Source: Brachybacterium ginsengisoli (GTDB lineage: Bacteria > Actinomycetota > Actinomycetes > Actinomycetales > Dermabacteraceae). Taken from it: a stretch of 64,000 bases of DNA. Position 1 is the first letter of the stretch; every line of letters starts with the position of its first letter. Shown here one piece after another: positions 58,335-61,747 of this stretch. The stretch covers positions 372,001-436,000 of the forward strand of contig NZ_CP023564.1 in the NCBI RefSeq assembly GCF_002407065.1, written 5' to 3'. The translations under genes were made by a program, and so were the position numbers. The notes below the pieces were generated by a model that was given only the letters and a program-made list of their open reading frames with translations, ran no database searches and was not told the DNA's origin.

Positions 58335-60392
58335 ATGACACACGAAAGCATCGAGACCCTGCTGGACGCGGCCCGATTGGCCGGACTCGAGACCACCGAG
58401 GGCGGTCGGATCCTCGCGAAGGTGTCCCGCCCGGACGCGAAGGGCACCTCCTACCGCAGCAGCCTCGTCGAGATCGACGGCGACCGCCTGCTCCCGCTCA
58501 CCCGCGGCAGCGCCTCCGTCGGCGCCGTCGCCGCGGCCGAGGACGGCACCACCTACTTCACCGCCAAGCGCGTGGGCGAGGACGGCGAGGAGTCCGAGGA
58601 CGCGCAGCTGTGGGCCCTGCCCGTGCGCGGCGAGGCCCGTGAGCTCGCCACCCGTCCCGGCGGCTTCGGCGGCCTGACCATCGCGGGCCGCCACCTCATC
58701 ACCGAGCTCGAGGTGCACTCCCAGGCCGCCGACGAGGCCGAGCACGCCGAGCTCACGAAGAAGCGCTCCACGGCCAAGGTCACCGCCGCCTTCCACACCG
58801 GGTTTCCCACCCGCTACTGGGACCACGACCTCGGCCCCACCCGCCCCGTGCTCGCGATCGCCGCGCTGCCGGACGACCTCGCGCTCGCCGAGCGCACCCC
58901 GGCACCCGCCGGCGCCGACGCGAAGACCCCGTCGGCCGACGGGGACGACGAGGACCAGCCCACCCAGGTCCTCCACTTCCGCCACCTCGCGATGCCAGCC
59001 GGTCGGCTCCTGGACTGGACCGTGGACCGCAGCGGCGAGAAGGCGCTGATCGCGGTGCAGGACTCCCGCGGCGATCTGCTCGCCGTCCCCGACCTCTACC
59101 TCCTGGACCTCGTGGGCGGCGAGGCGCCGCGCCTGCTGCGCGAGGGCACGGCCGAGATCGAGCACGGCCCGGGCGAGTTCAGCCCCGACGGCCGCCGCGC
59201 CCTCGTCGGCCGGTACCGCACCTGGACGCAGACGGCCACGATGGGCGTCGGCGTCGAGCTGCTCGACCTCGCCACCGGCGAGTCGACCCCGGTCTGGCCT
59301 GAGCTCGACCACTGGGCGGACCCGATCTGGCTCGACGAGGACACCCTCGTCGCCACCACCGACGAGCAGGGCCGCGGCGCCGTGTGGATCGGCGGGGTCC
59401 ATGACCCGGCCCCGCGCCGCCTCGCGGGCGGACCCGACCAGGACCTCGCCTTCTCCGGCGCCTCGGTCGCAGGCGGTGCGATCATCGCCTCCGCCTCCGG
59501 GATCGCCGTCGCCCCGCACCCCGTGCGCATCGATCCCGCCGACGGCACCGTCACCGCGCTGCCCAACCCGGCCGAGCCCGTCGACCTGCCCGGCACCCTC
59601 ACCGAGGTCACCGCGACCGCCGAGGACGGCACCGACCTGCGCGCCTGGCTGCGCCTGCCCGAGGGGGAGGGGCCGCACCCGCTGGTGGTCTTCGCCCACG
59701 GCGGCCCGTGGGGCTCCTGGAACGCCTGGACCTACCGCTGGAACCCGGGCCCGTTCGTCGCCGCCGGCTACGCCGTGCTGCTGCCGGACCCGGCGATCTC
59801 CACCGGCTACGGCCAGGCGATGATCGACCGTGGCCAGCACGAGCTGGGCGGCGCCCCGTACACCGACATCATGGCGCTCACCGACGCCACGATCGCCCGC
59901 GAGGACGTCGACGCCGAGCGCACCGCCTTCGCCGGCGGCTCCTACGGCGGCTACATGGCCAACTGGGTGGCCGGGCACACCGGTGACCGCTTCCGATGCA
60001 TCGTCACCCACGCCTCCCTGTGGGACACCGCCACGATGGGCGCGACCACCGACAACTCCGGGTGGGAGCGGCCGATGCGGGAGCAGAACCGGCTCTACAA
60101 CCCCAAGGACTTCGTGGCCGACATCGTCGCTCCGATGCTCGTGATCCATGGCGACCGGGACTACCGGGTGCCGATCGCCCAGGGCCACGCCCTCTGGTAC
60201 GACCTGCACACCTTCTCGGGCACTCCGCGCGATGCCGAGGGGCGCACCCGCCATCGCTACCTGTACTTCCCCGACGAGGGCCACTGGATCCAGGGCCGCG
60301 GCAACGCGCAGGTCTGGTACGAGACCTTCCTCGGCTTCCTGGACGAGCACGTGCGCGGCGAGGAGTGGACGCGCCCCGCGACTCTGGGCTGA
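58335..60392 (+). CDS. S9 family prolyl oligopeptidase-type serine peptidase
   Basis: 685 aa, cytoplasmic (no signal peptide). Residues about 1-410 form a beta-propeller and 420-685 the alpha/beta-hydrolase catalytic domain. The Ser is in FAGGSYGGYMANW near residue 538, the Asp in VIHGDRDYRVPI near 615 and the His in FPDEGHWI near 650. It resembles acylaminoacyl peptidases and dipeptidyl peptidases acting on short peptides. I chose ATG 58335 over the in-frame start at 58317. The stop codon lies in the first unit of a 53-bp tandem repeat. Confidence 0.92.
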   Translation: MTHESIETLLDAARLAGLETTEGGRILAKVSRPDAKGTSYRSSLVEIDGDRLLPLTRGSASVGAVAAAEDGTTYFTAKRVGEDGEESEDAQLWALPVRGEARELATRPGGFGGLTIAGRHLITELEVHSQAADEAEHAELTKKRSTAKVTAAFHTGFPTRYWDHDLGPTRPVLAIAALPDDLALAERTPAPAGADAKTPSADGDDEDQPTQVLHFRHLAMPAGRLLDWTVDRSGEKALIAVQDSRGDLLAVPDLYLLDLVGGEAPRLLREGTAEIEHGPGEFSPDGRRALVGRYRTWTQTATMGVGVELLDLATGESTPVWPELDHWADPIWLDEDTLVATTDEQGRGAVWIGGVHDPAPRRLAGGPDQDLAFSGASVAGGAIIASASGIAVAPHPVRIDPADGTVTALPNPAEPVDLPGTLTEVTATAEDGTDLRAWLRLPEGEGPHPLVVFAHGGPWGSWNAWTYRWNPGPFVAAGYAVLLPDPAISTGYGQAMIDRGQHELGGAPYTDIMALTDATIAREDVDAERTAFAGGSYGGYMANWVAGHTGDRFRCIVTHASLWDTATMGATTDNSGWERPMREQNRLYNPKDFVADIVAPMLVIHGDRDYRVPIAQGHALWYDLHTFSGTPRDAEGRTRHRYLYFPDEGHWIQGRGNAQVWYETFLGFLDEHVRGEEWTRPATLG

Positions 60393-60599
60393 TCGACGTG
60401 CTGCGAGGGACGAGCGGCAGGAGATCAGCGGGATGGCAGGGCTGATCGACGTGCTGCGAGGGACGAGCGGCAGGAGATCAGCGGGATGGCAGGGCTGATC
60501 GACGTGCTGCGAGGGACGAGCGGCAGGAGATCAGCGGGATGGCAGGGCTGATCGACGTGCTGCGAGGGACGAGCGGCAGGAGATCAGCGGGACGGCAGG
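60388..60599 (+). repeat. 4 x 53-bp tandem repeat overlapping the peptidase stop codon
   Basis: Four head-to-tail 53-bp units begin at 60388, 60441, 60494 and 60547. They look identical except for GATGG changed to GACGG near the end of the fourth. Each has the inverted pair GCTGATC / GATCAGC (for unit 1 at 60388-60394 and 60423-60429), so every unit can fold as a hairpin. The peptidase stop TGA (60390-60392) is inside unit 1. The array may act as a terminator or mRNA 3'-end stabiliser and is likely to vary in copy number between strains. Confidence 0.9.
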
Positions 60600-60647
60600 G
60601 CTGAAGTCACCGGGCGGCCGACGGGCGGGATGGTCCGTCGGTCGCCC

Positions 60648-60676
60648 TTGACATCTGTTCGAACGGGCGTTCGAAT
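60648..60676 (+). promoter_or_regulatory. Promoter with perfect SOS (LexA) box
   Basis: TTGACA (60648-60653), a 17-bp spacer and TCGAAT (60671-60676) form the promoter. The 18-bp perfect palindrome TTCGAAC-GGGC-GTTCGAA (60658-60675) contains CGAAC-N4-GTTCG, the LexA/DinR box known from Bacillus and mycobacteria. It covers the spacer and -10. Transcription should start at or next to the ATG at 60683. Confidence 0.8.
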
Positions 60677-60682
60677 AGGGTC

Positions 60683-61747
60683 ATGCGGTGGAGCGGGCAG
60701 GAGATCAGCACGGGGACCGGCGAGCAGCCGAGCACCCCGGCGCTGCTGGGCATGTCCGGGCTGGTGCGCAGCGTGCAGACCCCGGAGTTCCAGGGCGTCA
60801 CCTTCCACGAGGTGATGGCGAAGTCGGCGCTGAACAAGGTGCCGGCCGCGAGCTCCATGCCCTTCGAGTGGACGGTGAACCCCTACCGCGGCTGCTCCCA
60901 CGCCTGCGTGTACTGCTTCGCCCGCAGCACCCATCGCTACCTCGACCTCGACGCCGGGGCCGACTTCGACCAGCAGGTGATCGTCAAGGTCAACGTCGCC
61001 GAGGTGCTGCGGGCCGAGCTCGCCAAGCGCTCCTGGAAGCGCGACCTCGTGGCGCTCGGCACCAACACCGACCCCTACCAGCGGGCCGAGGGCCGGTACC
61101 GGCTGATGCCCGGCATCCTCTCCGCCCTCGCCGAGTCCGGCACGCCGATCTCGATCCTCACCAAGGGGACGCTGCTGCGCCGTGACCTGCCGCAGCTCGA
61201 GACCATCGCCGAGCAGGTCCCCGTGGACCTCTCGATGTCGATCGCGGTCTTCGACGACGCGCTGCAGAAAGCCGTCGAGCCGGGCACGCCGAGCACCGCC
61301 GCGCGCCTGGCCACGGTGCGCGCCGCGGCCGACGCCGGATTCCGTGTGACCGTCTTCCTCATGCCGATCATGCCGTGGCTGACCGACTCCGACGCGCAGC
61401 TCGACGAGGCCCTGGCCCGGATCGCCGAGGCGGGTGCGGCGCACGTGGTCCACGGCGCCCTGCACCTGCGGCCCGGTGCCAAGGAATGGTTCCTGGAGTG
61501 GATCGATCGGGAGCATCCCGAGCTCGCCACCGGGTATCGGCGCTTCTACGGGACCTCGTCCTCCGCGCCCGTCGCGTACCGGCGCACCCTCTCACGTCGG
61601 CTGGTCCCGCTGCTGCGTCGCCACGGGCTCGACTTCACCGAGGACGTCGACCAGCCCGAGCACCGGAGCCGGGCGGCGGAGGCCGCGCGCCGGCCGCGCC
61701 TCGCACCGGCGGCGCTGGATCTCCTGCCGCAGCCGGCGCTGTTCTGA
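60683..61747 (+). CDS. Rv2578c-type radical SAM protein
   Basis: 354 aa. The 4Fe-4S cluster Cys residues are in RGCSHACVYCFAR (CxxxCxxC, near residues 70-78), preceded by the family NPYRGC. GTNTDPYQRAEGRYRL and VFLMPIMPWLTDSD follow in the barrel. This group is related to SplB-like proteins and widespread in actinobacteria; the reaction is undetermined. There is no RBS, and the -10 sits 6 nt before the ATG, so the message is probably leaderless. The SOS box suggests induction by DNA damage and a role linked to DNA repair. Confidence 0.87.
   Translation: MRWSGQEISTGTGEQPSTPALLGMSGLVRSVQTPEFQGVTFHEVMAKSALNKVPAASSMPFEWTVNPYRGCSHACVYCFARSTHRYLDLDAGADFDQQVIVKVNVAEVLRAELAKRSWKRDLVALGTNTDPYQRAEGRYRLMPGILSALAESGTPISILTKGTLLRRDLPQLETIAEQVPVDLSMSIAVFDDALQKAVEPGTPSTAARLATVRAAADAGFRVTVFLMPIMPWLTDSDAQLDEALARIAEAGAAHVVHGALHLRPGAKEWFLEWIDREHPELATGYRRFYGTSSSAPVAYRRTLSRRLVPLLRRHGLDFTEDVDQPEHRSRAAEAARRPRLAPAALDLLPQPALF

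Follow-up and report, generated by a model that had tools for sequence, protein, structure and literature searches.

Introduction

Rv2578c of Mycobacterium tuberculosis, which gives its name to a family of radical SAM proteins, belongs to the LexA regulon. A radical SAM protein has been named in the core Gram-positive SOS regulon (PMC7739468), and SplB-type proteins are under SOS control in other phyla (PMC8565304, PMC3323433). SOS control of such genes is therefore already known, and is less new than an earlier note on the DNA studied here may have assumed. The LexA sites concerned are GAAC-N4-GTTC in Gram-positive bacteria and GTTC-N7-GTTC in Alphaproteobacteria (PMC3323433). In Streptomyces venezuelae, vnz_31145, listed as a 'radical SAM protein', lies under a LexA ChIP-seq peak and was induced 19.97-fold by mitomycin C in RNA-seq analysis; the section that holds the LexA target table does not name its family (PMC9380542). 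The Streptomyces gene also serves as a prophage attachment site, and its annotation as SplB calls for caution (PMC12924846).

Spore photoproduct lyase (SPL) has a fourth cysteine, C141 in the Bs enzyme and C140 in the Gt enzyme, which is the catalytic hydrogen donor, and, right behind the third cysteine of the cluster motif, a tyrosine, Y99 (Bs) or Y98 (Gt), which acts as a relay (PMC3742179). Here we analyse a gene of the Rv2578c family in a 64,000-nucleotide stretch of the Brachybacterium ginsengisoli genome, hereafter the window, whose positions are used below unless genome positions are indicated.

A perfect SOS box overlies the promoter

Inspection of the gene and its upstream region revealed the following features.

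60648-60653, + strand: −35 element TTGACA, read directly from the sequence and conserved in orthologous loci
60658-60675, + strand: LexA operator (SOS box) TTCGAAC-GGGC-GTTCGAA, in full TTCGAACGGGCGTTCGAA, with its 16-base core at 60659-60674
60671-60676, + strand: −10 element TCGAAT, which shares bases with the right operator half and ends 6 nt before the ATG
60677-60682, + strand: six bases between the −10 element and the ATG, read directly from the sequence
60683-61747, + strand: open reading frame for an Rv2578c family radical SAM protein of 354 aa with an MRW start (NF038135, 511.3 bits), predicted to be leaderless
60893-60916, + strand: codons of the CxxxCxxC motif (C71, C75, C78), the predicted [4Fe-4S] ligands and the only three cysteines of the protein

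The earlier note had placed the palindrome TTCGAAC-GGGC-GTTCGAA over the promoter and put the −10 element 6 nt before the ATG. Both placements were confirmed by reading the sequence, with TCGAAT at 60671-60676 and the ATG at 60683. In the window sequence, TTGACA and TCGAAT are separated by exactly 17 nt. Because its second base is C instead of A, the −10 element is weak by consensus, and its support is its conservation. The operator overlying this promoter is of the GAAC-N4-GTTC type, the mark of a Gram-positive LexA regulon.

A scan of the 3,953,253-base genome found a single perfect copy of TCGAAC-N4-GTTCGA, the one at the radical SAM gene. Sites with one mismatch numbered 17, and the same pattern read backwards gave 4. 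The number of perfect 16-mers expected by chance, from a first-order estimate, is 0.002 for the window, 0.14 for the genome as a whole and 7e-6 for a 200-base stretch. When the 18-base form was searched with up to three mismatches, the window contained 3 sites against 0.93 expected; since 8 of 100 shuffles equalled this count, only the perfect match stands out.

The genome encodes both LexA (246.3 bits, cut-off 110.95) and RecA (567.9 bits, cut-off 325.3), each with one-mismatch boxes upstream. Seven of the 17 one-mismatch sites lie at SOS genes, namely lexA (2), recA, ruvA, imuA' (2) and uvrA; the remaining 10 are mostly inside reading frames, the others being unassigned. The two lexA boxes are 150 to 260 bases upstream of the gene and fall inside the opening section of a divergently oriented yneA-like frame that scores 56.6 bits, just below the model cut-off of 60. 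One box precedes uvrA at the part of that locus that was read. The ruvA box (genome 2240610-2240625) is situated between ruvC and ruvA, with 10 bases separating it from the first start codon of ruvA, a position that points to an SOS promoter of its own for this gene. Two overlapping boxes 12 bases apart (genome 1989788-1989815) lie before imuA' (109.1 bits, cut-off 65), which is followed by an imuB-like frame with weak matches to DNA polymerase IV models and then by the start of the error-prone polymerase of the dnaE2 cluster. An earlier start codon of the imuA' frame precedes the boxes, but the frame's family match begins downstream of them. From the one-mismatch boxes at these host SOS genes it follows that the radical SAM gene carries the same box, and that its match is the best of all.

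The box is conserved at a fixed distance from the start codon

Promoters of relatives were compared in the best 80 of at least 598 loci, ranked by similarity of the protein and not of the promoter. In 70 of these 80 loci, and in 30 of the 32 named genera, a box with at most two mismatches was present at −23 to −25 relative to the start codon; for 2 of the 80 no distance could be given, as no MRW start was found in them. We also scored the best box between 150 bases upstream and 20 bases downstream of the start: it had 0, 1, 2, 3 and 4 mismatches in 25, 31, 15, 7 and 2 of the 80 loci, respectively. At most one mismatch was thus seen in 56/80, against 7 of 2868 control windows of equal length from the same loci (56/2868 with at most two mismatches). 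With coding DNA among the controls and related loci in the set, this comparison gives no formal probability.

Within the genus, all 13 carriers have the perfect box, spread over three gene neighbourhoods of 3, 9 and 1 genomes, and the four central bases and the flanks vary. Streptomyces is an exception: its GGGAAC-N4-GTTCTA box lies at −46, and there is a GAGGAGG leader. A Tsukamurella relative departs in another manner: its half-sites TCGAAC and GTTCGA, at the same promoter position, are five bases apart and not four. Among remoter loci of the phylum sample, of which 20 were fetched and two with probable inteins omitted, a box with at most two mismatches lay within 350 bases in 7/18 and was absent in 11/18, the start of the match not always being the start of the gene.

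Conserved geometry predicts a leaderless transcript

Allowing one mismatch, TTGACA is found at −35 or −36 in 57 of 78 orthologous loci (from the best 80 of at least 598). The box stands at −24 in 53 loci. All of these have T(−35) and most have TTGAC; T(−12) and T(−7) are present in 53/53 and 52/53, respectively. T(−7) is not part of the palindrome, so its conservation is that of the promoter itself. In loci with the box at −25, the −35 element in most cases also stands one base further out.

Counting the start codon as +1 puts TTGACA at −35 and the −10 element at −12 to −7. A Shine-Dalgarno-like site was found in one of the 78 loci, the Streptomyces one, and in none of the other 77. The transcript is thus predicted, with high probability, to begin at the ATG, give or take a base, and to be leaderless. 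The leaderless start put forward in the earlier note is well supported, as a prediction, by the conserved −35/−10 geometry relative to the start codon.

LexA-type sites extend to Streptomyces and Alphaproteobacteria

We searched for the published vnz_31145 box string, requiring GAAC-N4-GTTC nearby, in 295 genomes of a genus taken as Streptomyces because a Streptomyces locus among the relatives has the same promoter. It occurred in five of them, each time on the opposite strand and 38 bases upstream of the start codon belonging to a frame that carries the family motif RGCxHxCxYCFAR. Judged by these promoters, vnz_31145 is very likely the ortholog of the window family gene; the published box position of −61 (PMC9380542) is at odds with the start codon in those five genomes, so the identity is very likely and not proven.

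Seven alphaproteobacterial plasmid loci out of 71 matched plasmid records were examined as well; they represent five genera, two of them twice, and 2 of the 7 are annotated as PA0069 family. A perfect GTTC-N7-GTTC lies at most 400 bases upstream of the match in six of them, and a copy with one mismatch in the seventh; no perfect GTTC-N7-GTTC occurred in the rest of each locus. That related enzymes stand under LexA-type sites of two builds argues for a role in the damage response.

Operator conservation, the boxes at host SOS genes and the published Streptomyces ChIP-seq and mitomycin C data (PMC9380542) strongly support the LexA repression that the earlier note had predicted. We regard LexA regulation of the window gene in B. 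ginsengisoli as close to certain.

The gene stands alone and is absent from part of its genus

The protein scores 511.3 bits with NCBIfam model NF038135 (Rv2578c family radical SAM protein) against an equivalog cut-off of 430. Its residues 1-317 match model positions 1-317, collinear from the start, and the MRW start is common to relatives. C71, C75 and C78 are conserved in 75/75 aligned sequences. NF038135 scored above its cut-off in 45/396 genomes of the phylum sample, 119/296 of the class and 13/38 of the genus. The gene is therefore absent from 25 of the 38 genus genomes, and from 20 if only the 33 good ones are counted. An intein is probably present in several relatives, judging from longer match spans and the intein model NF038136. 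Within the genus there was no link to photolyase, which is found in 4/13 carriers and 6/25 non-carriers.

Upstream of the gene is a same-strand S9-type peptidase gene ending at 60392, and on the other side an opposite-strand gene without a Pfam or NCBIfam match. When frames from the best 80 of at least 598 loci were clustered, the commonest neighbour cluster was found in 14 loci; by eye we take it to resemble acyl-CoA dehydrogenase. Between the peptidase gene and the SOS promoter, positions 60386-60604 form a 53-base tandem repeat of 4.1 copies with 99% matches, each unit carrying GCTGATC/GATCAGC arms. Related short arrays lie around genome positions 793267-793469, 846298, 2556188-2556317 and 3906456-3906594. 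No alignment crossed the array in two genus-mates that have the same neighbourhood.

Two other roles were considered and set aside. A match to phrog_13321 (7.6e-45) raised the possibility of phage cargo, yet the phage collection gave 8 records, all below 31% identity. As to anti-phage defence, no PADLOC family matched up to E 1. Acidianus two-tailed viruses encode a radical SAM protein that is 28.7-29.9% identical to the window protein over residues 63-231.

The predicted fold is nearest to SPL, and the fourth cysteine is missing

A structure model was computed from 75 sequences, comprising the window protein, 44 of the 80 named loci and 30 other genomes, and reached a mean pLDDT of 88.1. Its best solved matches were SPL entries (Foldseek E 3.7e-9; Z 20.0, rmsd 3.9 to 4.0, 279 to 280 aligned by VIA), followed by the pyruvate formate-lyase activating enzyme as the next family (Z 16.2). 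SPL entries had also come top with an earlier 18-sequence model of pLDDT 75.9. The 75-sequence profile found SPL by sequence as well (E 6.6e-5), with an hhalign probability of 94 against a 183-residue piece. The curated SPL model TIGR04070, however, gave only 10.1 bits (E 0.27) against a cut-off of 400.

As all three cysteines of the protein are cluster ligands, the catalytic fourth cysteine of SPL is missing. Across the 75 sequences, the only alignment columns with at least 8 further cysteines are position 222 (42) and position 46 (19). The residue after the third cysteine is Phe79 in the window protein, and F, Y and D in 62, 10 and 3 of the 75, respectively. An ungapped alignment put the lyase cysteine at T127, where the spacing to the conserved Lys fits, yet other offsets scored just as well and hhalign aligned this stretch differently; this placement is unsupported, so the argument is made from the cysteine count only.

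The low TIGR04070 score, the lack of a fourth cysteine and Phe79 together indicate a relative of the lyase and not a lyase of that type. Of the SplB-like character ascribed to the protein in the earlier note, the fold and distant homology hold, whereas a score of 10.1 against 400 bits and the absence of the catalytic cysteine speak against its being a spore photoproduct lyase.

A proposed mechanism

The best explanation overall, to which we give a probability of roughly 60%, is that the locus is a single-gene SOS unit, leaderless, for a radical SAM enzyme that works on a damaged base. A LexA dimer on 60659-60674 would, by the anatomy of the site, cover the spacer and part of the −10 element, so that RNA polymerase could not use the promoter. 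Upon DNA damage, RecA-driven cleavage of LexA would free it, and transcription would start at the start codon or no more than about a base away, yielding a leaderless mRNA in keeping with the conserved geometry. The [4Fe-4S] cluster expected from CxxxCxxC and the fold would cleave SAM to the 5'-deoxyadenosyl radical. The target would most likely be a damaged DNA base, less likely RNA, to be reverted or modified. Lacking the cysteine, and with Phe79 in place of the relay tyrosine next to the cluster, the enzyme should be unable to quench the substrate radical in the manner of SPL; another residue would have to donate the hydrogen, or SAM would be consumed at each turnover.

That the enzyme acts on damaged nucleic acid at all is the reading towards which we lean, with the limit that a shared fold shows no function. 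A search of mainly open-access literature on Rv2578c/PA0069-type proteins found no substrate, mutant, activity or functional study. In favour of a real damage-response job is that many actinomycete genes and their alphaproteobacterial relatives are under LexA through different operators. More tentatively, the Rv2578c/PA0069 group could be, beside SPL itself, a second class of enzymes with the SPL fold that repair nucleic acids by direct reversal, light-independent, SOS-induced and without the cysteine-tyrosine relay, for a lesion of growing cells that has no known dedicated repair enzyme. A lyase fold without the catalytic cysteine sharpens the question of which lesion and which hydrogen donor are involved. 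The fusion of operator, core promoter and start codon also makes the locus a compact natural SOS reporter.

Alternative explanations

The enzyme could be under the same LexA control and work with ImuA', ImuB and DnaE2, for instance by modifying a template base or a partner protein for bypass, without reversing a lesion. SplB-like proteins have been linked to ImuB-C operons (PMC3765255). An imuB-like frame lies at most 3 kb from the gene in 5 of 6 Gordonia loci (L093, L117, L123, L130, L139); the one such frame tested (L093) has weak matches to DNA polymerase IV models, and in L123, the only locus tested for it, imuA' was confirmed beside the gene (171.5 bits). Among 296 genomes, ImuA' is found in 70/119 carriers and 54/177 others, a raw odds ratio of 3.25 that is uncorrected for relatedness. 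The adjacency, however, was seen in one genus only, and by the same uncorrected count 49 of the 119 carriers have no ImuA' above cut-off and 54 ImuA' genomes no radical SAM gene above cut-off. Tight dependence on the ImuA'/DnaE2 system is unsupported because of this discordance in both directions; the association with ImuA' is loose, and we consider a bypass function unlikely.

About equally unlikely, in our estimate, is that the SOS regulon took in a radical SAM enzyme which modifies RNA or protein and has no direct part in repair. The fold has a general likeness to MiaB, RlmN, lipoyl synthase and others, and its binding of nucleic acid is putative. Those fold matches are nevertheless weaker than the ones to SPL (Z at most 16.2 against 20), and the wiring to LexA through differently built operators across phyla (PMC8565304, PMC3323433) sits poorly with such a recruit.

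Direct reversal of 5-thyminyl-5,6-dihydrothymine as by a true SPL, here in a non-sporulating organism, would explain why SPL is the closest solved fold, the profile match at E 6.6e-5 and the common EPGT motif. A C141A lyase, moreover, retains roughly one third of the normal rate in vitro (PMC3742179), so some activity survives loss of the cysteine. The same substitution makes Bacillus spores very UV-sensitive (PMC3742179), however, and the window protein combines the lack of that cysteine with Phe at the relay tyrosine (62/75 sequences) and 10.1 against 400 bits for TIGR04070, which makes this activity improbable.

Finally, although LexA control in the host species is predicted here from the sequence, a chance palindrome of no regulatory meaning has next to no probability given a perfect box unique in the genome, its conservation at a fixed distance and in 13/13 genus carriers, the conserved promoter and published LexA binding in Streptomyces (PMC9380542).

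Comparison with known systems

Our preferred reading, an SOS-induced radical SAM enzyme for a damaged base, can be set against the described systems as follows. With SPL (TIGR04070; PDB 4FHC) the window protein shares the fold, the cluster motif and the EPGT motif; it differs in having no fourth cysteine, in having Phe for one relay tyrosine, and in falling far under the family cut-off. With vnz_31145 it shares the radical SAM assignment; vnz_31145 is LexA-bound and mitomycin-induced, and its box string occurs in promoters of this family. Promoters of the Streptomyces type differ from that of the window gene in their GAGGAGG leader and in a GGGAAC-N4-GTTCTA-like box that lies mostly at −46 to −49 and, in others, at −58 and −82.

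The PA0069 family of Proteobacteria (NF033668) is related over residues 40-281, but its score of 217.2 bits is under the cut-off of 360, and the operator of its relatives is built differently. Radical SAM mobile pair protein B (TIGR04470) matches residues 55-320 with 91.4 bits, far off its cut-off of 410, and, unlike in that mobile pair, neither of the two neighbours of the window gene matches a radical SAM family. The closest system is the NF038135 family itself, with the same CxxxCxxC motif, the MRW start and a LexA box in the promoter (70/80 relatives, from the best 80 of at least 598); the window protein has a 37-residue C-terminal tail past the end of the model, and nothing essential differs.
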